From: Sedimenticola thiotaurini
Lineage (GTDB): Bacteria; Pseudomonadota; Gammaproteobacteria; Chromatiales; Chromatiaceae
Direction: 5' to 3'
NCBI GenBank assembly: GCA_011051715.1
Contig: DRKP01000129.1
Span: 1-33,150, forward strand
DNA: 33,150 nt
Positions within the stretch are counted from its first letter, which is position 1; every line of letters begins with the position of its first letter. The position numbers were made by a program, and so were the translations under genes. This document shows positions 17,121 through 31,514 of the stretch, in pieces. The notes beneath the pieces were generated by a model. The model did not search any database. It saw only the letters and a program-made list of their open reading frames with translations, and was not told the origin of the DNA.

Positions 17121-17265
17121 GCCGGTCCGACGCCCGCGCCATCCGCGCAGGAGCGCCACCGCCGGCGCGAACGGGCCGGACTGCTGTGGTGGATTGTTCG
17201 CGGCGGGGGCGCCGGTCCGACGCCCGCGCCATCCGTGTAGGAGCGCCGCCCCCGGCGCGAACGGG
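17121..17265. repeat. REP-like repeat pair between the exporter gene and xseA
   Basis: A 55-base sequence occurs at 17121-17175 and again at 17211-17265, exactly 90 bases apart and with 51 of 55 bases identical. Each copy ends in AGGAGCGCC...GGCGCGAACGGG. In the second copy GCGCCG-CCCC-CGGCGC is a perfect hairpin. Between them, TTCGCGGCGGGGGCGCC (17197-17213) is a partial inverted copy. The same core returns between guaB and guaA, so this is a genome-wide extragenic palindrome family. It sits at the end of xseA and upstream of the exporter gene on the same strand. Confidence 0.82.
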
Positions 17266-20300: not shown

Positions 20301-20510
20301 CGCCCCGTTCGCGTCGGGGGCGCCGCTCCCACACCGGCTTCGTCCCCGCAGGAGCGCCGCTCCCGGCGCGAACAGGTGGCCGCCGTGATCGATTTTTACG
20401 GCGAGGGCGCCGCTCCCACGACGGTTTTGTCCCCGCAGGAGCGCCGCCCCCGGCGCGAACGGATGGCCGCCGTGATCGATGGTTCACGGTGAGGGCACCG
20501 CTCCTGCGTG
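20301..20510. repeat. Tandem REP-like array between guaB and guaA
   Basis: Two full units and the start of a third repeat with a period of 87-88 bases; CGCCGCTCCCAC starts at 20321 and 20408, with a variant at 20496. Each full unit holds a reversed core (GGGCGCCGCTCCCAC) and a forward core (GCAGGAGCGCCGC...GGCGCGAAC), then GGCCGCCGTGATCGAT. Both cores match the family seen at 17121-17265. The inverted pairs can form long hairpins in the transcript between guaB and guaA, which may set the ratio of the two products or stabilise the guaB message. Confidence 0.83.
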
Positions 20511-20575: not shown

Positions 20576-22153
20576 ATGTCAGCAGATATTCACGCCCACC
20601 GCATCCTGATCGTCGACTTCGGTTCCCAGTACACCCAGCTGATCGCCCGGCGGGTGCGCGAGGCCGGCGTCTACTGCGAGATCTGGCCCTACGACAACTG
20701 CGAGCAGGTGATCGACGAGCACCCGCCGGCGGGGATCATTCTCTCGGGTGGGCCGGAGTCGGTGACCGGCGCGGACACCCCCCGTGCGCCCCAGCGGGTG
20801 TTCGGGCTGGGAGTGCCGGTGCTGGGAATCTGCTATGGCATGCAGACCATGGCGGCCCAGCTCGGCGGACGTGTGGCCCCCTCCTCGGCCCATGAATACG
20901 GCTATGCCCAGGTGCGCGCCAGGGGGCATTCGCAACTGCTGCGCGACATCGAGGACCACACCAGTCCGGAGGGCTACGGCCTGCTCGATGTCTGGATGAG
21001 CCATGGTGACCGGGTGGAGGAACTGCCCCCCGGCTTCCACGTCATCGCCGAGACCGACAACGCCCCCCTGGCCGGCATGGCCGACGAGGAGCGGCGCTTC
21101 TACGGTATCCAGTTCCATCCCGAGGTGACCCATACCCGCCAGGGTCAGCGCATCATCGAACGTTTCCTGTTCCGCATCTGCGGCTGCGAGCCGCTGTGGA
21201 CCCCGGGCCAGATCATCGACGACAGCATCCACCAGGTGCGGGCACGGGTGGGGGAGGGCAAGGTGCTGCTGGGCCTCTCCGGTGGTGTCGACTCCTCGGT
21301 GGTGGCGGCGCTGCTGCACCGGGCCATCGGCGACCAGCTCACCTGTATCTTCGTCGACAACGGTCTGCTGCGGCTGCACGAGGGGGACCAGGTGATGGCC
21401 ACCTTCGCCGAGCACATGGGCGTGAAGGTGATCCGGGTGGATGCCGAGCAGCGCTTCCTCGATGCACTGAAGGGGGAGGCGGATCCGGAGAAGAAGCGCA
21501 AGATCATCGGCAACCTGTTCATCGAGATCTTCGAGGAGGAGGCCGAGAAGCTCGAGGACGTCAACTTCCTGGCCCAGGGCACTATCTATCCGGATGTGAT
21601 CGAGTCGGCCGGGGCCAAGTCGGGAAAGGCCCATGTGATCAAGTCCCACCACAACGTGGGCGGGCTGCCGGACTACATGAAGCTGGAGCTGGTGGAGCCC
21701 CTGCGCGAGCTGTTCAAGGACGAGGTGCGCAAGATCGGTGTCGAGCTGGGCCTGCCCTACGAGATGGTCTATCGCCACCCGTTCCCGGGCCCGGGCCTGG
21801 GCGTGCGCATCCTGGGTGAGGTGAAGAAGGAGTATGCCGATCTGCTGCGTGAGGCGGACCATATCTTCATCGAGGAGCTGCGCCGCGAGGGGCTCTACGA
21901 CCAGGTGAGCCAAGCCTTCGCCGTGTTCCTGCCGGTGCGCTCGGTGGGCGTGGTGGGGGATGCCCGGCGCTACGAGTACGTGGTCTCCCTGCGCGCGGTG
22001 GAGACGGTGGATTTCATGACCGCCCGCTTCGCCCACCTGCCATTCGAGTTCCTGGAGCGGGTGTCCCGCCGCATCATCAACGAAGTGGGCGGCATATCAC
22101 GGGTCGCCTACGATATCTCCAGCAAGCCGCCGGCAACGATCGAGTGGGAGTGA
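20576..22153 (+). CDS. guaA: GMP synthase (glutamine-hydrolysing)
   Basis: GuaA converts XMP to GMP using glutamine and ATP. It has 525 residues, like E. coli. The class I glutamine amidotransferase domain shows Cys86 (GICYGMQ) and His181/Glu183 (FHPEV). The ATP-pyrophosphatase P-loop is SGGVDSS (235-241), and the C-terminal dimerisation domain ends in [15 protein letters not shown] lies about ten bases before the ATG. The 3' end of this gene is duplicated at 31450-31478, so the last codons appear to belong to an integration site; the protein is nevertheless complete. Confidence 0.97.
22124..22152. repeat. Probable attL: guaA 3'-end copy of the island boundary
   Basis: These 29 bases, the last codons of guaA (KPPATIEWE), recur at 31450-31478 with 27 identities. 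The only differences are A/G at 22135 and 22139, one silent and one Ile/Val. Known islands that integrate at guaA recreate the gene end from element DNA, which would make this the left junction. Confidence 0.65.
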
Positions 22154-22210
22154 CTGGTGCTGTTTGGCACCTGCTGGTAAGGTCTGGCACTGACAGGCAT
22201 CAGAACCAGG

Positions 22211-22241
22211 GCTTCAGGATTACGCGACTGGCGTCTGAAGC
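22211..22241 (+). terminator. Weak hairpin after guaA
   Basis: GCTTCAG (22211-22217) and CTGAAGC (22235-22241) form a 7-bp stem with a 17-base loop about 60 bases after the guaA stop. No T-run follows. It is the only inverted repeat noticed between guaA and the amidohydrolase gene, where no convincing promoter was seen. Confidence 0.25.
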
Positions 22242-22316
22242 GTCGTTGACGCTGCTGAATACATATGGCCGCCTTCAGTCGGCAATTGCCGGTGTTTCGT
22301 TTCACGGGGATCAGGG

Positions 22317-24257
22317 ATGTTCAGGCTATTATCGATACTGGCCGTGACTTCAGTGCTGTCGATCGGCAGCGGCCATGCTGGAGCAGGCAAGACGGACCTT
22401 GGGGTGCAGACCCTCTATTATGGGGGCGACATCGTCACCATGGAGGGCGATGAGCCCACCTATGTGGAAGCGGTGATGGAGCGCGATGGCCGCATCATCT
22501 ACGCGGGCCCCAGAGCCTCGGCGGTGAACAACTTTGCCGGTGAGACCATCAAGGTGGACCTGCAGGGCACGACCCTGATGCCGGGCTTCATAGAACCTCA
22601 CGCCCATCCCGTTTCCATCGGCGCTTTCATCCTCGCCAACGATATCGTGGCGCCCCACGAGTGGCGCATGCCGAACGCGACCTACCCCGGTGTCAGTGGC
22701 AAGGAGAACTACCTGAAGGCGGTCAGGGCGATCATCGATTCGAAGAAGGACAAGAGTCAGACCGTACTCATCTGGGGCTACCACAAGTCCTGGCACGGTG
22801 AACTCACCCTCGAAGAGCTGGACCGGGTCACGGGCGATGTGCCCACCATCATCTGGCAGCGCTCAACTCACGAGATCTACCTGAACACGGCCTGTGCCAA
22901 GAAATACGGCGTGCACAAGGGCGATCTGTCCAGGGAGGATGACGAACAGGCGGACTGGGAGAACCTCCATTTCTGGGAGCGTGCCTACCAGATGATCAAA
23001 GGCACCAAACTGGCGCCTTTCTTTGGCGACCGCAAGATGCTCCAGCGCGGTATGGACCGCATCTCTGCAGTAATGCAGCAGAATGGCATCACCGCCATGA
23101 TGGAGCCCGGTTTCCCCACCAGCACCTTTGAGGACGAGTATCAGGTTCTCAAACAAGGCACGGAAAAGGCCAGGGCCTATACTATCTACCTGGTATCCGG
23201 ATTTCCGGAACAGTTCGTGAAGAAGCTCTCCAGCGACAAGTATGCGGCGCACATCGATGCGTTGCCAAAGAAGTACGACACCGAGTACATCAGGTTCCTG
23301 CCCAGGCAGTACAAGACTTTCGCCGACGGCGCCATCTACTCCCTTGCCCTGCAGCTGCGGGAGCCCTTCTATAACTGCAGGGAGTGCAAGTCCGAGTGGA
23401 TCATCCCGCTGAAGGAGGGCGAGGCAATCTTCGATTACTGGTGGAACAAGGGCTACAAGATTCACATCCACATCACCGGCGACAAGGCCTTTGATGCCTA
23501 CCTGGATATCGTGGAGCGGGCCATGAAGCGCAATCCGCGCACGGATCACCGCACCACCTTCCACCACGTGGGCCTGTTCGACGGTGAGCAGGCGCAGCGG
23601 GCCGCCGACCTCGGTATCGAGATCTCGGCCAACCCCTACTACCTCTGGGCGCTGGCGAACAAGTACAGTGAAACCGGCCTGGGGCCGGAACGGGCCGCCA
23701 GCATGGTGGCACTGAATGAGTTCACGAAGCGTGGGGTGCCGGTCTCCCTGCATTCGGATTTCGCCATGGCACCGGCCGATCCCCTGCTCCTCGCCTGGGT
23801 GGCATCCAACAGGATCATCGACGACGGACGCGTAATGAAGCCGGAAGAGCGCATCCCGGTCTACGACGCCATGAAGGGCATCACCATCGCCGCGGCCCGC
23901 ACCTTCGAGATGGACCATGAGATCGGTTCCATCAAGGTGGGCAAGCAGGCCAACTTCACGATCCTGGAGCAGAATCCGTTCAAGGTCGATCGGAGCCGGA
24001 TCAGGGACATCCCTGTCCTGGGTATCGTCTACAAGGGGAAGATGAAATTGAACGGGGAGAGGAAAGTGAGCGGTGATCGCGACGAGTTGGGCTGCATTCG
24101 TTCGGCCGGCTATCGCTGGTGCGAGAAGACCGGCCAGTGCGAGCGGCCCTGGCTGCTGGCGAAGCAGAAGGGTTTCGAGAACACTCCGGAAGCCTTCGGG
24201 GCCTGGTGTGACAACGTGCTCATGCGGAAGAAGGAACCGCCTCCCGGGAATCATTGA
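22317..24257 (+). CDS. Exported metal-dependent amidohydrolase (YtcJ-like) with a cysteine-rich tail
   Basis: The 646-residue product starts with a signal peptide (MFRLLSILAVTSVLSIGSGHA). It has the amidohydrolase-3 layout: a small beta domain (VQTLYYGGDIVTMEGDEPTYVEAV), the metal motif HAH (H95, H97) in GFIEPHAHP, histidines at 383 and 385 (HIHITGD) and 416-417, an aspartate in SLHSDFAMAPADP (about 481), and return of the beta domain (IGSIKVGKQANFTILEQNP). Family members hydrolyse amide or related bonds; the substrate is unknown. A tail beyond the normal fold has Cys593, Cys602, Cys608 and Cys631 (GCIRSAGYRWCEKTGQC), probably disulphide-linked in the periplasm. GGGGA lies about ten bases before the ATG. 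It is the first gene inside the guaA-flanked module. Confidence 0.85.
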   Translation: MFRLLSILAVTSVLSIGSGHAGAGKTDLGVQTLYYGGDIVTMEGDEPTYVEAVMERDGRIIYAGPRASAVNNFAGETIKVDLQGTTLMPGFIEPHAHPVSIGAFILANDIVAPHEWRMPNATYPGVSGKENYLKAVRAIIDSKKDKSQTVLIWGYHKSWHGELTLEELDRVTGDVPTIIWQRSTHEIYLNTACAKKYGVHKGDLSREDDEQADWENLHFWERAYQMIKGTKLAPFFGDRKMLQRGMDRISAVMQQNGITAMMEPGFPTSTFEDEYQVLKQGTEKARAYTIYLVSGFPEQFVKKLSSDKYAAHIDALPKKYDTEYIRFLPRQYKTFADGAIYSLALQLREPFYNCRECKSEWIIPLKEGEAIFDYWWNKGYKIHIHITGDKAFDAYLDIVERAMKRNPRTDHRTTFHHVGLFDGEQAQRAADLGIEISANPYYLWALANKYSETGLGPERAASMVALNEFTKRGVPVSLHSDFAMAPADPLLLAWVASNRIIDDGRVMKPEERIPVYDAMKGITIAAARTFEMDHEIGSIKVGKQANFTILEQNPFKVDRSRIRDIPVLGIVYKGKMKLNGERKVSGDRDELGCIRSAGYRWCEKTGQCERPWLLAKQKGFENTPEAFGAWCDNVLMRKKEPPPGNH

Positions 24258-24520
24258 TCGCCCCGACGGCCAGGCACTGCAGCCTGGGGGATGGTGCCCA
24301 TCAATGAACTGCGGCTGATGGAACCGGGCGAAGCATTCAAGTGCAGAGATATCCTTCGTCGGTCGGCTTCAGCCCGAGGGGGTGAATTGGAGCAACGCTG
24401 GATTGTCCTCCTGAAGGCCGACCCGGTCAGCATGTTCTCGGCCCCGTGCCACATGAAATAACAAGGAACTCTGAACAACAATCCGGGTATTTGACCCCGA
24501 AAATCATGGAGGAGCAGAAG

Positions 24521-25627
24521 ATGAAGAGGATCCGGCTGTCAAAATGGTTCACCGGCGCCAGCGCGGCGCTGACCCTGGTGGTGGGTGGCCTGGTGCCGCC
24601 CGCCCAGGCCTGCACCGGGCTGCGACTCACGGCGGAGGACGGTACCGTGGTCCATGCCCGTACCCTGGAGTTCGGCGTGGACCTTGGATCGGACGTCATC
24701 ATGGTGCCGCGGGGCTATGCACGCACCGGCACTGCGCCCGATGGCAGGCAGGGTATGAAGTGGAAAACCAGGTACGCAAGCCTGGGAGCCAACGGCGTGA
24801 ATCTGCCCTACATCTTCGACGGCCTCAATGAAAAGGGCCTGGCCGTGGGTACCTTCTATTTCCCCACTACTGCTGGCTACATGGACTTTGATTCAAAGGA
24901 TGTCAGCAGTACCCTTGCCCCCTGGGAAGTGGGTTCCTGGCTGCTGGAGAACTTCGCCAATGTGGAGGAGGTGAAGGCGAACATCGGAAAAGTGGTTGTG
25001 CCCGGGGTAGTGCTCGGTGCATGGGGCTTTACGCCACCGGTTCACTGGGTGGTGCATGACGCCACCGGCAGGAGTATCGTCATCGAGTACGTGGAGGGCC
25101 GGTTGAATGTGCACGACAACCCGCTGGGGATCATGTCCAACTCACCCACTTTCGATTGGCACATGACCAACCTGCGCAACTACGTGAACCTCGCCCTCAC
25201 AAACTCCCCCACACTCGAGCTCGGACCGGTGGAGCTGAAACCTCTGGGCCAGGGCGCCGGCATGCTCGGCCTTCCCGGTGACTACACCCCACCATCGCGT
25301 TTTGTGCGCATAGCCGCCTTCAGCCAGGCGGTGCTGCCGTCGAAGACCGGTTGGGACGCCGTCAAGCAGGCCTTTCATGTGCTGAATTCTTTCGACATTC
25401 CCAAGGGCGTGGCGCGGGACCGGGAGAGGGACGAGCACGGCAACATCGTGGCTGACTACACTACCTGGACCAGCGCCAACGACCTCAAGCGCAAGCGTTT
25501 CTACTTTCGCACCTATGACAACAGCCGTATCCGCATGGTGGACCTGATGCGCATGGATCTCGACGGCAAAGAGATCGTCACCATCTCCATGAAGGGCGAG
25601 GAAGAGGTGGAAGAACTCACACCCTGA
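24521..25627 (+). CDS. Exported linear amide C-N hydrolase, choloylglycine hydrolase/penicillin V acylase family
   Basis: This Ntn hydrolase has 368 residues. The signal peptide (MKRIRLSKWF...PPAQA) should be cut just before Cys31, exposing the N-terminal cysteine nucleophile CTGLRLTAEDG. The conserved arginine 16 residues later is present (HARTLEFG); the aspartate of bile-salt hydrolases is replaced by glutamate, as also happens in some Gram-negative relatives. SNSPTFDWHMTNLRNY supplies the conserved asparagine region. Members cut bile salts, penicillin V or acyl-homoserine lactones; which applies here is open. GGAGGA before the ATG at 24521 supports this start over an earlier ATG at 24446. 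The 263-base gap before it shows no clear promoter. Confidence 0.87.
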   Translation: MKRIRLSKWFTGASAALTLVVGGLVPPAQACTGLRLTAEDGTVVHARTLEFGVDLGSDVIMVPRGYARTGTAPDGRQGMKWKTRYASLGANGVNLPYIFDGLNEKGLAVGTFYFPTTAGYMDFDSKDVSSTLAPWEVGSWLLENFANVEEVKANIGKVVVPGVVLGAWGFTPPVHWVVHDATGRSIVIEYVEGRLNVHDNPLGIMSNSPTFDWHMTNLRNYVNLALTNSPTLELGPVELKPLGQGAGMLGLPGDYTPPSRFVRIAAFSQAVLPSKTGWDAVKQAFHVLNSFDIPKGVARDRERDEHGNIVADYTTWTSANDLKRKRFYFRTYDNSRIRMVDLMRMDLDGKEIVTISMKGEEEVEELTP

Positions 25628-25749
25628 ATACGGCTTGACCGCTTACAGGAGGTCTGAAGCCCAACCCTGCCGAAGTTCGGCTCAGAGGAAACCAAAAGTA
25701 TGGCGCCCACTGGCGCCTCCTCCGTCAACAGCCCGGGTTGATCCTGTGA

Positions 25750-26262
25750 TGGCAATGCCCTGGCGGAGACGAACAATGGCCAGGGAAGGGGAACAGGCAA
25801 CTGGATTTCTCCTTCGGCTCGACCCAGTACCTGGTCGGCGATGCCGATATCGATGTCACGGCCCAAGGCGTACGCGTGGACGGCAGGTTTGATCGCAATT
25901 GCATTCTGTTCCCCGGTGGCAACGCGCGCTGCCATATCGGGACGCCCTATCATGACGGCACTGTCCAGGTTGTCCTCGAACCTCTCGATCTCGTCACCAG
26001 GACAGCGGTATCGGTGCCGGGACCAGGTGTCAATCCGGTGCCCTTCCTCGGTATCTTCGTGTCGAACAGCGACCACCGGGCCCTGGTCACGCCCGCCTCG
26101 TTGCCCGGGAGTCGTGTGCCAGCGGCTGGTCTGTCGTGGGGGCCTGTCTGCCTGATCCCAGGAATCATCAGTTCCGGTGACGGGGCAGCCATGATTCAGG
26201 CGCAGCCGGAATGCATCATGACGATGGACCGGATTGGCCCCGGCTGTTGGGAAAACAGGTGA
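25750..26262 (+). pseudogene. Unrecognised open frame, probably a gene remnant
   Basis: The frame is open from 25750 and reads like coding sequence with C or G in many third positions (QLDFSFGSTQYLVGDADID, then TVQVVLEPLDLVTRTAVSV), ending GPGCWENR at 26262. No ATG with a ribosome site opens it; a GTG at 25876 with AAGG nine bases before is the only weak choice, and it would drop the coding-like first part. The frame is preceded by a stop at 25747-25749. No family was recognised. It may be the 3' part of a gene whose beginning was lost after the Ntn hydrolase gene. An opposite-strand ORF over the same stretch looks like a shadow. Confidence 0.35.
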
Positions 26263-26684
26263 AGTTTCGGCGGCATCGGTGGCCACACGGGCACGATTCA
26301 GGCCCACGCACCGGCAAACAGGCGTTTCATTCACGGTCCCCGGTGGTTGCATCTGGACTTGGGAAAACAGGGCGATTATTCTTTCAACGCCCGGCTCCAC
26401 AGAGCAAGGGCAGCAGTTTTTTCGCCTGAGGTAGGTGATGCCCAACCGGGCCATCGAGCTGTCGGGAAAAACCTGGTTTTCCATCAGGTAGATGGCCCCG
26501 GAACCGGGCTACAGCGGGTCTACCCGATTCAGCCATGCTTTCCGCAGCATGACCGGGCCGGCCGCCAGTACCTGCCGGGAGAAGACCCGGCAGTTCCAGG
26601 GAGAGGGCGCTCGAGCGCGCCCTGAGCCAGTTGCCCTTCGATTGGCGGGGCCGCTGAGTTCACCGATACTTAAGGAGTGAGTAC
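26263..26684. other. Apparently non-coding or decayed stretch
   Basis: No gene was recognised in these 422 bases. A short frame at 26234-26434 ends in QQFFRLR and could continue the previous remnant after a frameshift. A 13-base direct repeat TTGGGAAAACAGG occurs at 26247 and 26359. A GC-rich hairpin, AGGGCGC (26604-26610) with GCGCCCT (26617-26623), lies about 60 bases before the next start-like site. Confidence 0.4.
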
Positions 26685-27122
26685 ATGAAGTCGAGATTCA
26701 CCATCCTCCCGCTGGCGCTGCCCCCGATGTTACTGTGGGGCCTGCCACTGACAAGCCCAAGGGTATCCAGCGGATCGCGCTGCAGCCCTGTCCCTGTCCC
26801 CTGGTGCCGAAGGAGACCGCCCGCCGTCAGATGACCAATACGCTGGTGGACAAGGCGCCTGGACGAGCGCCCATGAACCGGTTCGCCCACGTGCGGGAGT
26901 TTTCCTCGGCGGACTTCCCCGAGTTGGTTTGCCCCCAGTTTCGACCTCTTCTGTTTGCGCCGTGTGGCCATCGCCCTGGTTGGGGGGCGCCAATACCTCT
27001 GCGCAGGGGGGCTATCCCCTCGATCTCACCGACAGCGAGAGCAAGTACCCCGGGATGGCAGGAAATATGTCATCCATTCAAGGAAGGAAGAGATCCCGCC
27101 GGTGGTGCAACCTGTGCAATGA
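26685..27122 (+). pseudogene. Frameshifted gene remnant with intact ribosome site and signal-like start
   Basis: AAGGAG seven bases before the ATG at 26685 is an excellent ribosome site, and the first residues (MKSRFTILPLALPPMLLWGLP) resemble a signal peptide. The frame then stops at 26829-26831 and again shortly after. A neighbouring frame is open across the middle (KGIQRIALQPCPCPLVPKE, then MNRFAHVREFSSADFPELV), and the first frame reopens near 26943 (FDLFCLRRVAIALVGG) and ends DGRKYVIHSRKEEIPPVVQPVQ at 27122. Two compensating frameshifts in one old gene would explain this. The family is not recognised. It lies 28 bases before the next gene and may once have been in its operon. Confidence 0.4.
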
Positions 27123-27150
27123 ACCCCAGCCTTTCATGGAGAAACAAGTT

Positions 27151-28593
27151 GTGAAGAGAATACAAGCATTGTTGGCTGGCCTGCTGCTGCTGGCCGGAAG
27201 CCCGGGGGCTTCAGCAGAGGAGCCGCTGGGCGGCAGACCGCCGGCGGAGATGAAGCCGGCCATCGAAGACTACAGCCAAACGCTTAAGTACCGGCGTGCC
27301 TTCGAGGTGGCCACCTGGGCCATGCCGGCAGTGGGCATCTACGGTTTTCGCCGCGCCACCGAGGCGGTGGGCGGCAGCGACAACACCATCCTCGTCTGGT
27401 CGAAGGTGGCAGGGCCCAACGCCGAGCTGCTCACCGCCAATGACACCACGCCCTACATCCTGGCCATGTCCGACCTGCGCAAGGGGCCGGTGGTGCTGGA
27501 GGTGCCGGCCGCCACCGACAGGGCCCTGCTCTATGGCCAGATCGTGGATATGTGGCAGTTCGCCATCGCCGACGTGGGGCCGGTGGGGGCCGATGAGGGC
27601 AAGGGGGGCAAATATCTCTTCCTGCCGCCAGGGTACAAGGGCAGGGTTCCCGAGGGCTACCTGGTGATGAAGAGCCCGAGCAACCGCATCTACCTGGCCT
27701 TTCGCTCGGTGCGCAAACCCGGCTCCGGCGCCACCCTGGAGGACGCCTACGACTATGCCCGTAAGCTGAAGATGTACTACCTGGACGATCCCAGGCCCAC
27801 AAGCTACATCGACCCCTCGGACATGCGCTTCCCGTCGCTCCCGCCCTACGACGAGACCCTGTTCCGGGACATACAGGAGATCTTCGATGGCGAGCCGGTG
27901 AAGCCCCAGGACAAGGTTATGATGGGCTACCTCGAGTCCCTGGGTCTGGAGCCCGGCAAGCCCTTTGCGCCGGATGAGAAGACGCGCAGGCTGCTGCGCC
28001 AGGCAGCGGCTGATTTCTATTTCTACATGCAGCACCGCCTCACCTTCCAGAAGAAGGAGAAGTATTATTGGCCCAACCGGCACTGGCAGGACGTGCTCAC
28101 GCCGGATCGAAACGGCTACTTCTCCTTTGTCTACGACGATTCCATCGACCTGGACGAGCGTGCCGAGCGCTACTTCTTCGCGACCTATTATCCGCGCAAG
28201 TACTACGAGAAGCCGGCCAACATCTATCTGTTCGCCAAGGTGGACGCCAATGGCAAGCCGCTGGAGGCGGGGAGGAACTACAAGCTCACCATTCCGCCCA
28301 ACATGCCGGTGACCCAGTTCTGGTCGCTCATCATTTACGACGGCGCCACCTGGGCCTTCATCTACACGCCGCAGAAGAAGGTGGGCATCTCCTCTTACGA
28401 CCTGGACAAGCTGCGGAAGAACCCGGACGGCAGTATCACCCTCTACTTCGGCCCCGAGCCGCCCGACGGGCTGGAGAGCAACTGGATCCCCACCGGCGGC
28501 AAGACGCCGGCGCCGGGCCTGCGCTTCTACGGCGCCAAGCAGGAGATCATCGACCGCAGCTTCGTCATGCCCGACGTGGAGCCTTCGGATTGA
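27151..28593 (+). CDS. Exported DUF1254/DUF1214 protein, copy 1
   Basis: The product has 480 residues with a signal peptide (MKRIQALLAGLLLLAGSPGASA). The DUF1254 part (about 35-190) includes NDTTPYILAMSDLRKGPVVLEVP and KYLFLPPGYKG. The DUF1214 part near the C-terminus has NYKLTIPPNMPVTQFWSLIIYD and LESNWIPT. These paired domains form exported proteins of unknown biochemical role. The GTG at 27151 is preferred because GGAG lies nine bases upstream and the signal peptide starts there; an ATG at 27136 is the alternative. A strong hairpin follows the stop by five bases. It is related to the next two genes but longer in sequence distance than neighbouring duplicates would be, so the copies are old. 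Confidence 0.85.
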   Translation: MKRIQALLAGLLLLAGSPGASAEEPLGGRPPAEMKPAIEDYSQTLKYRRAFEVATWAMPAVGIYGFRRATEAVGGSDNTILVWSKVAGPNAELLTANDTTPYILAMSDLRKGPVVLEVPAATDRALLYGQIVDMWQFAIADVGPVGADEGKGGKYLFLPPGYKGRVPEGYLVMKSPSNRIYLAFRSVRKPGSGATLEDAYDYARKLKMYYLDDPRPTSYIDPSDMRFPSLPPYDETLFRDIQEIFDGEPVKPQDKVMMGYLESLGLEPGKPFAPDEKTRRLLRQAAADFYFYMQHRLTFQKKEKYYWPNRHWQDVLTPDRNGYFSFVYDDSIDLDERAERYFFATYYPRKYYEKPANIYLFAKVDANGKPLEAGRNYKLTIPPNMPVTQFWSLIIYDGATWAFIYTPQKKVGISSYDLDKLRKNPDGSITLYFGPEPPDGLESNWIPTGGKTPAPGLRFYGAKQEIIDRSFVMPDVEPSD

Positions 28594-28598
28594 ACCCA

Positions 28599-28627
28599 GG
28601 GGAAGTCTGAAAAACTCAGACTTCCCC
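28599..28627 (+). terminator. Perfect 12-bp hairpin after DUF1254 copy 1
   Basis: GGGGAAGTCTGA (28599-28610) and TCAGACTTCCCC (28616-28627) pair perfectly around the loop AAAAC, five bases after the stop codon. No T-run follows, so it might be a Rho-aided end, a block to 3' decay, or a partial terminator within the operon. Confidence 0.55.
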
Positions 28628-28646
28628 CGGTACAGGGATGTGCCGG

Positions 28647-28677
28647 CAAATTCGATCGCTCTCAGCGATTGAATTTG
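28647..28677 (+). other. 14-bp hairpin with three-base loop
   Basis: CAAATTCGATCGCT (28647-28660) and AGCGATTGAATTTG (28664-28677) pair along 14 positions, with a single G-T wobble, around the loop CTC. It is the second of three stable structures in the same 180-base gap. Confidence 0.5.
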
Positions 28678-28690
28678 TAGCAAGCCGCAA

Positions 28691-28711
28691 GCCGCAAACC
28701 GCGTTTGCGGC
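28691..28711 (+). other. 8-bp GC-rich hairpin, third in the series
   Basis: GCCGCAAA (28691-28698) and TTTGCGGC (28704-28711) pair perfectly around CCGCG. Just before it, GCAAGCC is repeated in tandem. The next gene has AAGGAG at 28759-28764. Confidence 0.45.
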
Positions 28712-28775
28712 GCGGCGCGCCTGATAAAGCCAGGGATGGCTATTGCCAGGCCTTCCATAAGGAGATCGAGGAACC

Positions 28776-30356
28776 ATGAAAAGAACAGCCTGCTTCGCCC
28801 TGGCCACCCTGCTGGCCACCGGCTCCGGCTCGGCGGCCACCCAGGGTTACAACACCGGCATCCCCAGGAGCATTCTCACGCCAAACCGCCTGGAAACGCC
28901 CCTGGGGGATTTCGAGCTGTACGACGGCATTCCCACCAGGGAATCGGCGGACCGGGCCTACGACGGGCTCTATTTCCTCCGCGCCGTGGACACCTTCCTC
29001 AACTTCCAGTCGGCGGTCTCCATTGAGGCGCTGCGCCGCGGCCAGGCCTCCATCGGTGCCAATACCTCCAACAAGGTCATCGTCTTTGACCAGTTGATGG
29101 ACTCCAGGCCGCTGTTCCTAACCGGCAATACGGACACCGTCTATGCCCTGGCCATGCTCGACCTGGAGAAGGATGGTCCCACGCTGATCGAGATTCCCAA
29201 GGGGGCCGGGCCAGGCACCCTGGACGATGCCTTCCAACGCTTTGTGGTGGACATGGGGACGCCCGGTCCGGACGCGGGCAAGGGTGGTACCTACCTCATC
29301 CTGCCGCCCGATTACCAGGGTGAGCTGAAGCCCACCCCCAATACCCGCAAGGACCCACGAACAACCCGGGTGAAGATCGGTGGGAAGGAGCGGGAGGTCT
29401 GGATCGCCCGCTCGCCCAGCTACGTGAACTGGCTGATCCTGCGCGGCTTTCTGGTGGACGGCAAGCCCGATGCCGCCGTGAAGATGTGGCGCACCGGCCT
29501 GAAGATCTATCCCCTGGCCAAGGCCGACCAGCCGCCCAAGATGGTCTACATCAACGGTTCGCGCAAGGCCTTCAACACCGTTCTTCCCACCGACGAGAGC
29601 TATTTCGACTATCTCTGGCAGGTGATTCAGAAAGAGCCCATCGGCTTCATCGATCCCGAGCTGCGGGGCATGGCCGGCGCCATCGGCATCGTCAAGGGTC
29701 AGCCCTTTCAGCCCACGCAGCGGCAGAAGAAGATCCTGGCCCAGGCGGTGGACTTCGGTAATGCTGCCTCCCGCACCCTGGCCTTCCGGCCGGCCGATCC
29801 ACGCGCCCGGATCTTCGAGGATCGACACTGGTACCTGGCCTTCGTGGGCAAGGACTACCGCTGGCTCGACGGCGACGGCCGCCGGGGACGCAATCTGGAC
29901 GCCCGTACCGCCTTCTATTACATCGGCACCGTGAACACCCCGGCCATGGCCGTCGAGATTCCCGGCGCGGGCTCCAACTACGGCATGGCCTTCACCGATG
30001 CCGAGGGCAGGGCCCTGCGCGGTGAGAAACTCTACCGGCTGCACCTGCCTGCCGATGTGCCGGCCAGGGAGTTCTGGTCGGTGGTGCTCTATGATCCCCA
30101 GACCCGCTCCCAACTCCAGACCAGCCAGCCCTTTCCCAGCATCAACAGCCAGCGGGACAAGGGGCGGTTGCAGTACAACGCCGACGGCTCCATCGATCTC
30201 TATTTCTCCCCCGAGCCGCCCAGAGAAAGGGAGAGCAACTGGATCCAGACCGTGCCGGGCAAGTCCTGGTTCGCGGTACTGCGGCTCTACGGGCCGCTGG
30301 AACCCTGGTTCGAGAAGCGCTGGAAGCCAAGTGACATCAAGGCTGTGAACGAATGA
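28776..30356 (+). CDS. Exported DUF1254/DUF1214 protein, copy 2
   Basis: This 526-residue protein is the longest of the three paralogues. It has a signal peptide (MKRTACFALATLLATGSGSA), the DUF1254 region with GNTDTVYALAMLDLEKDGP and TYLILPPDYQG, a middle insertion relative to copy 1 (about 185-260), and the DUF1214 region LYRLHLPADVPAREFWSVVLYD followed by ESNWIQT. AAGGAG lies 11 bases before the ATG. Its TGA overlaps an ATG of the next gene. No catalytic motif stands out, and function is unknown; the shared periplasmic location with two hydrolases suggests a joint pathway, but that is inference. Confidence 0.86.
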   Translation: MKRTACFALATLLATGSGSAATQGYNTGIPRSILTPNRLETPLGDFELYDGIPTRESADRAYDGLYFLRAVDTFLNFQSAVSIEALRRGQASIGANTSNKVIVFDQLMDSRPLFLTGNTDTVYALAMLDLEKDGPTLIEIPKGAGPGTLDDAFQRFVVDMGTPGPDAGKGGTYLILPPDYQGELKPTPNTRKDPRTTRVKIGGKEREVWIARSPSYVNWLILRGFLVDGKPDAAVKMWRTGLKIYPLAKADQPPKMVYINGSRKAFNTVLPTDESYFDYLWQVIQKEPIGFIDPELRGMAGAIGIVKGQPFQPTQRQKKILAQAVDFGNAASRTLAFRPADPRARIFEDRHWYLAFVGKDYRWLDGDGRRGRNLDARTAFYYIGTVNTPAMAVEIPGAGSNYGMAFTDAEGRALRGEKLYRLHLPADVPAREFWSVVLYDPQTRSQLQTSQPFPSINSQRDKGRLQYNADGSIDLYFSPEPPRERESNWIQTVPGKSWFAVLRLYGPLEPWFEKRWKPSDIKAVNE

Positions 30357-30373
30357 CAACGAGGAAATTCAAG

Positions 30374-31444
30374 ATGAAACGGAAACTGCTCACAGGCGCG
30401 ATGCTCGCGCTTACCTTTACCACTGGTATGACCCAGGCCGCCGAGTGCCAGAAACGCTTCTACGCTCCAAACTGGGATCACCAGCCGCCGGTGGTGGATG
30501 CCTTCAACTACGTGCGGGCGGAGACCGACCTCCAGTTCAGGGGTTACGCTGATAAGTACGACGCCTTTGGCAAATTCGCCCACAGCCGCAGGCCCTACGA
30601 CGTAAACAAGCAGGTGACCCAGAGCGGCAACCGGGATACCCTCTACTCCTTTGGCGTATTCGACCTGTCGAAGTCTCCGCTCACCGTCACCCTGCCGGAC
30701 ACCGGTGACCGTTACATGTCCCTGATGCTGGTCTCCCAGGACCACGACATTTATCCCGCATACTATGCACCGGGCAAGTGGACCTTCACCCAGGAGAAGG
30801 TCGGCACCCGTTACGTCATGTTCGGCATTCGCATCTTCGCCAATCCCAACGATCCGAAGGACATAGAGGCGGCACACCGCCTCCAGGACCAGGTGAAGGT
30901 GGAGCAGCAGAACAAGGGCGACCTTTCCGGTATCCCCGAGTGGGACGAGCAGCAGATGATGGCTCTGCGCAAGTCCTACAACGAGGTCGGAAGCACCCTT
31001 TCGGACAGCTCCACCTTCTTTGGCGTCAAGTGCGACCGCTCCTACCTGGAGAACGCCATGGGGGTGGCGGTGGGCTGGGGCGGCCTGCAGCGCCAGGATG
31101 CCCTCTATCTGCCGCGCCAGGTTCCGAAGAATGACGGCAAGACCGCGTATGTGCTCACCGTGCCCAAGGAGGTGCCCATCCAGGAGAAGGGCTTCTGGTC
31201 GGTCACCGTCTACAACAGGGACCGCTTCATGGAGCCCAACGAGTTTAACGCCTACTCCTTCAACAACGTCACCGCGCAGAAGAACCAGGACGGCTCGGTG
31301 ACCATCCACTTCGGCGGTGACCCCAAGGCGAAGAATTTTCTGCCCATCTTCCCCGGCTGGGTCTACATCGTGCGGCTCTACCGTCCGGGCAGGGAGATAC
31401 TCGGTGGGGAGTGGAAATTTCCTGAGCCCCGGGAAGCAAGATAG
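30374..31444 (+). CDS. Exported DUF1254/DUF1214-type protein, copy 3 (short form)
   Basis: The product has 356 residues from the ATG at 30374, which has GAGG nine bases upstream and begins a clean signal peptide (MKRKLLTGAMLALTFTTGMTQA). An ATG at 30353 overlapping the previous stop is possible but would put seven polar residues in front of the signal. It shares GNRDTLYSFGVFDLSKSP and FWSVTVYN with the other two copies, but lacks their ESNW motif and ends in NFLPIFPGWVYIVRLYRPG. The stop lies only five bases before the second guaA-end copy, so this is the last gene of the module. Confidence 0.82.
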   Translation: MKRKLLTGAMLALTFTTGMTQAAECQKRFYAPNWDHQPPVVDAFNYVRAETDLQFRGYADKYDAFGKFAHSRRPYDVNKQVTQSGNRDTLYSFGVFDLSKSPLTVTLPDTGDRYMSLMLVSQDHDIYPAYYAPGKWTFTQEKVGTRYVMFGIRIFANPNDPKDIEAAHRLQDQVKVEQQNKGDLSGIPEWDEQQMMALRKSYNEVGSTLSDSSTFFGVKCDRSYLENAMGVAVGWGGLQRQDALYLPRQVPKNDGKTAYVLTVPKEVPIQEKGFWSVTVYNRDRFMEPNEFNAYSFNNVTAQKNQDGSVTIHFGGDPKAKNFLPIFPGWVYIVRLYRPGREILGGEWKFPEPREAR

Positions 31445-31449
31445 GCAGG

Positions 31450-31478
31450 AAGCCGCCGGCGACGGTCGAGTGGGAGTG
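31450..31478. repeat. Probable attR: second copy of the guaA 3' end
   Basis: The 29 bases match 22124-22152 at 27 positions, and matching extends three of four bases further left. Read in the guaA frame they give KPPATVEWE, but the stop codon is replaced by TGG, so the frame runs on into unrelated sequence. No other part of guaA is present here. This is what an attachment-site duplication would leave at the right end of an island. Confidence 0.65.
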
Positions 31479-31514
31479 GGTGGAATCCGAGACTCGAAGA
31501 TTCGCTTCCCGGCA

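Follow-up and report, generated by a model that had tools for sequence, protein, structure and literature searches.

The block at positions 25628-27122 of the window is very probably a scar of neutral decay at the join of two cargo pieces of a presumed island at the guaA site, the right-hand piece deriving from an operon with the order outer-membrane-like protein, AraC-family regulator, A, B, C and D, in which A to D are DUF1254/DUF1214 genes. The window is the whole of a 33,150-nucleotide contig (C129) from a draft genome of Sedimenticola thiotaurini in 194 contigs, and it was compared with 194 genomes of the family, among which the source genus is represented by one genome. A first-pass annotation, made from the letters alone, had described a decayed block between an Ntn hydrolase gene and the first DUF1254 gene, and both of the objects that it placed there, an open frame without a start and a gene start that breaks and later reopens, are indeed present. 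The translated search that it had proposed found related proteins, namely a DUF1254 gene and IS91-type transposases, rather than drawing a blank in every frame. Sequence comparison further showed that the block is a series of remnants from several genes and not a single broken gene; the decay is real and ordinary in kind. Pfam recognized no family at an E value of 1 in eight open frames of the block, and within its own genome the block DNA matched only itself and 10 segments of 18 to 45 bp, without a second copy.

The gene start that breaks and reopens is shown by comparison with intact relatives to be a lost DUF1254 paralogue, gene A (26685-27122, plus strand), of which 438 bp of about 1.4 kb are left; the right-hand end assigned to the block, 27122, is the stop codon of A itself. 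As the annotation had it, the ATG at 26685 has a ribosome site (GGAG) just upstream and opens a signal-like sequence, MKSRFTILPLALPPMLLWGL, that breaks about 50 codons in, the stop coming after 49 codons; the frame reopens toward its end, where it reads ...DGRKYVIHSRKEEIPPVVQPVQ before the stop at 27122. The frame 26681-27151 had matches in 10 of the 194 family genomes at an E value of 0.01, its own included, and the best match in another genome was an uninterrupted 492-codon frame in G140 (64% over 67 aa; E 4.8e-19 for one genome), a Sedimenticola sp. MAG (T2_metabat1_scaf2bin.270) that carries the gene on contig JALXAM010000076 (C76). The intact A protein of G140 is 466 aa long from its ATG and carries both DUF1254 and DUF1214. 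At the DNA level, the window and G140 are 72% identical over 538 bp (26433-26944), from the tail of the regulator gene into A, 83% identical over 142 bp (26968-27105) and then 89% identical from 27096 into B, and it follows from the breaks in this alignment that two stretches of intact A are absent, 684 bp net in the middle of the gene and 261 bp near its end. In intact A, the only two copies of the 7-bp sequence CCGGTGG flank the 261 bp, and the remnant retains one of them (27099-27105, plus strand), a pattern that slippage at short repeats would produce. The frame of the remnant is additionally broken by small frameshifting indels. Both ends of the remnant are thus homologous to an intact DUF1254/DUF1214 gene in the same operon position, and A does not qualify as a working member of that family: no open frame of A matches PF06863 or PF06742 above the cut-off, and PF06863 is matched in the genome solely by B, C and D. 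A promoter scan of 26600-27250 returned no match on the plus strand and one on the minus strand, an uninformative result.

Upstream of A, the alignment to G140 continues into the end of its AraC gene, and positions 26405-26608 (plus strand) are shown by homology to be what is left of an AraC-family regulator gene, from its C-terminal DNA-binding part. About the last 70 codons persist, interrupted by two in-frame TAG codons, and the first 80% or so of the gene is absent from the block. The remnant is 51% identical to residues 268-336 of this intact relative (L029, 10510-11523), in which Pfam finds HTH_18 at residues 251-327 and an arabinose-binding domain. The only other match to this regulator in the window's genome (34% over residues 185-327, on contig C111) is distant and was not taken as an orthologue. 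The earlier estimate that the module had lost two genes is therefore right in number, the two being the regulator and A, but not in identity, since the AraC remnant had been overlooked and the start-less frame that was counted in its place is not a module gene.

The three DUF1254/DUF1214 genes that follow on the plus strand, B (27151-28593), C (28776-30356) and D (30353-31444), are intact. In C76 of G140, the order is outer-membrane-like gene, AraC, A, B, C and D, all uninterrupted, and B, C and D are about 89% identical to those of the window at the nucleotide level and 89-91% at the amino acid level. The label "outer-membrane-like" was given from the sequence; Pfam assigns no family. Compared with their counterparts in G140, the window's regulator gene and A have decayed where they stood, and the outer-membrane-like gene has probably been lost from the genome altogether: the protein found no match there, in a search run without a positive control, though tblastn does find it in other loci. 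Because G140 and the window's genome are both drafts, some such absences may be gaps. G140 has a second copy of the operon (L084; JALXAM010000065, 1-3565), consisting of the outer-membrane-like gene, AraC, B and C, and since AraC there runs straight to B, A appears to be dispensable in that copy. The L084 contig has much lower coverage, and it perhaps comes from a second strain binned together with the first. The AraC genes of the two G140 copies are 17% apart and the adjoining B genes 6%, a disparity that suggests that parts of the operon may have different histories. G189 has A, AraC, D and part of B, in that order. A search of plasmids with gene B matched 254 records, all at less than 60% identity (best, 56.5%, from Sinorhizobium fredii), and there is therefore no close plasmid source among them. 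A MAG labelled Sulfurovum (L087; JALTVI010000066), a lineage that we take to be a distant one, carries the genes in the reversed order D-C-B at 64-73% amino acid identity, which may reflect either transfer or mis-binning. The intergenic element between B and C (28598-28765) folds into a row of strong hairpins (z -9.2) without a convincing match in Rfam. Two copies of it, 82-85% identical, occur in the vicinity of the G140 DUF1254 operon, and one of these follows D. An Rfam candidate for gyrA RNA in 25500-28900 (E value threshold, 0.1) scored 21.4 of 45 bits, far below the cut-off, and was rejected. The opening lines of abstracts on DUF1254, DUF1214 and VPA0735 name no function, though one may exist elsewhere in print.

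The substitution pattern of the remnants differs from that of the intact genes. Against G140, with columns within 3 of a gap excluded, divergence in B, C and D is 6-7% at codon position 1, 4-5% at position 2 and 20-24% at position 3, while the corresponding values are 20, 25 and 26% for the 5' part of A and 24, 27 and 27% for the AraC tail. The 3' part of A gives 12, 22 and 29% (5, 9 and 12 changes of about 42 positions each), an uneven distribution that counts against the preferred account. The third position takes 66% of the substitutions in B, C and D together (290/442), compared with 40% in A (34/86; Fisher p 1e-5) and 35% in the AraC tail (16/46; p 8e-5). For reference, divergence between the two intact AraC genes of G140 is 10, 8 and 35% at the three positions. 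Judged by these patterns, the remnants have drifted under little or no constraint, and B, C and D have not.

The other object described in the block is the stop-to-stop frame 25750-26262 (plus strand, 170 codons). To call it a frame without a start was fair, because the first possible start, a GTG at 25876, comes 42 codons in and the first ATG only at 26191. As a single lost gene of the module it does not hold up, and the related idea that it is the front of a split module gene was likewise rejected, because it matches an IS91-type transposase and the end of a FadL protein instead. Most likely, by these homologies, it is a chance fusion of two dead pieces, a FadL-type C terminus and part of an IS91/ISCR-type transposase. 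The front of the frame, to about 25929, aligns with the extreme C terminus of FadL-type proteins at 35% identity over 60 aa, so that 25768-25929 (plus strand) would be the last 50 or so codons of a FadL/TodX-type outer-membrane protein gene. Codons 25750-25890 scored z values of 7.4 and 12.3 against shuffles with two FadL proteins, none of 1000 shuffles doing as well for either, and two swapped controls gave noise-level scores; because Pfam does not report this piece, we regard it as only probable. The middle of the frame matches IS91-type transposases (best, 52% over 80 aa; E 4.2e-18 for one genome), and the frame as a whole found matches in 34 of the 194 genomes at an E value of 0.01, its own included, a few weaker ones falling outside the transposase part. 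Positions 25897-26103 (plus strand) are shown by this homology to be an IS91/ISCR-type transposase remnant: the 69 codons are 49% identical to residues 344-412 of a 503-aa relative, L012, and are the sole match to L012 in the genome. L012 carries Y2_Tnp according to Pfam, with PF04986 above the cut-off, and falls below both NCBIfam cut-offs (NF033538 and NF052416), ISCR clade Ia being its best NCBIfam model. A search of the window's genome with PF04986 gave no match and is uninformative, since control genomes were likewise silent. With residues 344-412 of 503 remaining, the transposase is far from complete, and the piece is not a working element. It is followed at 26099-26381 (plus strand) by sequence that also trails a transposase piece in another genome, G050 (71% over 286 bp), where about 275 bp that are absent from the window separate the two.

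The two intact plus-strand genes to the left of the block encode an amidohydrolase (Amidohydro_3; 22317-24257), 92% identical at the nucleotide level to that of G083 over the available part, and a choloylglycine-hydrolase-family (CBAH, Ntn) protein (24521-25627), 91% identical to those of G083 and G110. At the amino acid level, the Ntn hydrolase is 93% identical to its relatives in G083 and G110 and 76% identical to that in G166; these are the three closest loci, which were read, from matches in 26 of the 194 genomes at an E value of 1e-20, its own included. DNA homology with G083, which also covers the end of the amidohydrolase gene, stops at 25628 and that with G110 at 25718, and homology with the DUF1254 relative starts at 26433. 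No DUF1254 match occurs in these three loci within the stretches compared, the distance covered being limited by contig ends about 6.6 kb (G110) and 7.9 kb (G166) past the hydrolase, and no hydrolase, FadL or transposase match occurs in the 11 loci compared for gene B, which extend at most 6 kb on either side. The Ntn hydrolase, which had been drawn as part of the module, thus probably stands outside the DUF1254 gene set as far as these neighbourhoods indicate.

The ends of the stretch 22142-31475 suggest that a genomic island lies there, inserted behind guaA. The guaA 3' end (22120-22157, plus strand) forms the left member of a 38-bp direct repeat and contains GAGTGGGA at 22142-22149. An imperfect copy, the presumed right attachment site (31446-31483, plus strand), lies directly behind the stop codon of D (31444), is identical at 33 of 38 positions and contains GAGTGGGA at 31468-31475. 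In the available text of PMC9376610, GAGTGGGA is the core at which GIsul2 enters guaA. The left arm of the presumed island spans 22154-22262. A Pfam scan confined to the eight block frames and to the five intact genes between 22.3 and 31.4 kb revealed no integrase, and no relative was found with an empty guaA site joined to the window's right flank. Because of these two negative results and the 5 mismatches in the right repeat, we infer the island rather than assert it. None of the loci compared, among them the guaA loci of G140, G166 and G076, convincingly matches the right flank; its tblastx matches, short and scattered among the matches listed, were not used. Farther to the left, repeats of 55-82 nt that are presumably REP-like occur at 17121-17265 and 20312-20480, one pair on each side of the xseA-guaB pair.

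Three other accounts of the block deserve consideration. That two genes of one Ntn-hydrolase/DUF1254 module, the start-less frame among them, simply decayed in place would suit the arrangement of the intact genes on one strand with short gaps and the fact that A truly is a lost DUF1254 gene. It is nevertheless very unlikely, given that the start-less frame resolves into transposase and FadL pieces, that the hydrolase is found in none of the 11 B loci and that DUF1254 is found in none of the three closest hydrolase loci, within the stretches compared. Still less credible is the proposal that the organism has whole copies of A and its neighbour and that the breaks come from assembly or sequencing errors. 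The genome is a draft in 194 contigs and several small indels occur within A, but errors of this kind would have to account for the 684 bp net and 261 bp missing from A, read errors would not make the remnants diverge at all codon positions, and the block has no second genomic copy to confuse an assembly, only the matches of 18-45 bp. Because the substitutions in the remnants, unlike those in B, C and D, are spread over all codon positions, long neutral decay is to be preferred to assembly error.

It is also possible, if rather unlikely, that there is no island, the resemblance of 31446-31483 to the guaA end being a local duplication or chance and the cargo pieces having met by ordinary rearrangement. 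The failure to find an integrase and the lack of a convincing match for the right flank, even at the guaA loci of the three genomes named above, would fit such an origin. However, 200 simulations based on the dinucleotide frequencies of the window gave a best repeat score of 26/38, compared with the 33/38 observed, and the GAGTGGGA core described for guaA entry in the available text of PMC9376610 occurs in each of the two copies, its one other occurrence in the window being within D. Moreover, over the 123 bp of 22140-22262 the window shares 90% identity with the end of guaA and the DNA behind it in G189, where guaA itself is only 78% identical. Finally, third-position divergence from the nearest relatives is 16-22% for the cargo genes, whereas for guaA and guaB it is 30-51% against the same six genomes (27% for one partial guaB overlap); of the two sets, the genes between the repeats stand closer to genes of other genera.

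Under the preferred reading, a scar between two cargo pieces of a guaA-site island, the right piece would descend from an operon for an outer-membrane-like protein, AraC, A, B, C and D whose 5' part was lost, which removed the outer-membrane-like gene and all but the last fifth of the regulator gene and left the regulator end abutting IS91/ISCR-type debris and, probably, FadL debris. A would have lost its function through the 684-bp net loss in mid-gene, the 261-bp loss between 7-bp direct repeats and small indels, while B, C and D remained intact. The left piece, with the amidohydrolase and Ntn hydrolase genes, would come from a different neighbourhood. The IS91-type element may have made the join, a role suggested by its position, and an integrase may have brought the stretch in at guaA; the order of these events is likewise our reconstruction. 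More speculatively, guaA-site islands might form a family of their own within this bacterial family and carry DUF1254 operons and hydrolases from one genus to another, with IS91/ISCR-type elements uniting cargo of different origin and the regulator and A then being shed while B, C and D are kept, although we think this unlikely. The block is of interest mainly for redrawing the module. The original gene set is corrected to outer-membrane-like protein, AraC, A, B, C and D, as in the Sedimenticola MAG, and the Ntn hydrolase and the start-less frame should be omitted when the DUF1254 system is rebuilt. The codon-position data suggest that the loss of A and the local regulator is compatible with B, C and D keeping the bias of selected genes, which would make these three the operon's kept core.

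Several known systems can be compared with the window. Its likeness to IS91/ISCR rolling-circle transposases (PF04986, NF033538 and NF052416) consists of the 69 codons at 49% identity to a relative that matches these models, about one seventh of a transposase gene. GIsul2-type islands at the guaA 3' end, as described in the available text of PMC9376610, share with the presumed island the guaA-end direct repeats, GAGTGGGA at both ends and an ISCR-type relic inside. They differ in that no island-borne integrase was found here and the cargo consists of amidohydrolase, Ntn hydrolase and DUF1254 genes, and we have not filed the presumed island as a member of the type. Among DUF1254/DUF1214 proteins (PF06863/PF06742) of solved structure, which include VPA0106 (3u07) and VPA0735 (2p3y and 3vb9), 3u07 is matched by the intact form of A with an E value of 6.7e-29, and intact A has both domains; the A of the window aligns to the two ends, lacks the middle, has a broken frame and contains no frame that Pfam recognizes. 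A further parallel is the Sedimenticola MAG operon (JALXAM010000076), where the genes are whole and include the outer-membrane-like one, where the stretches read contain no match to the Ntn hydrolase, and where B, C and D lie in the same order at about 89% nucleotide identity with intact orthologues of AraC and A directly upstream.
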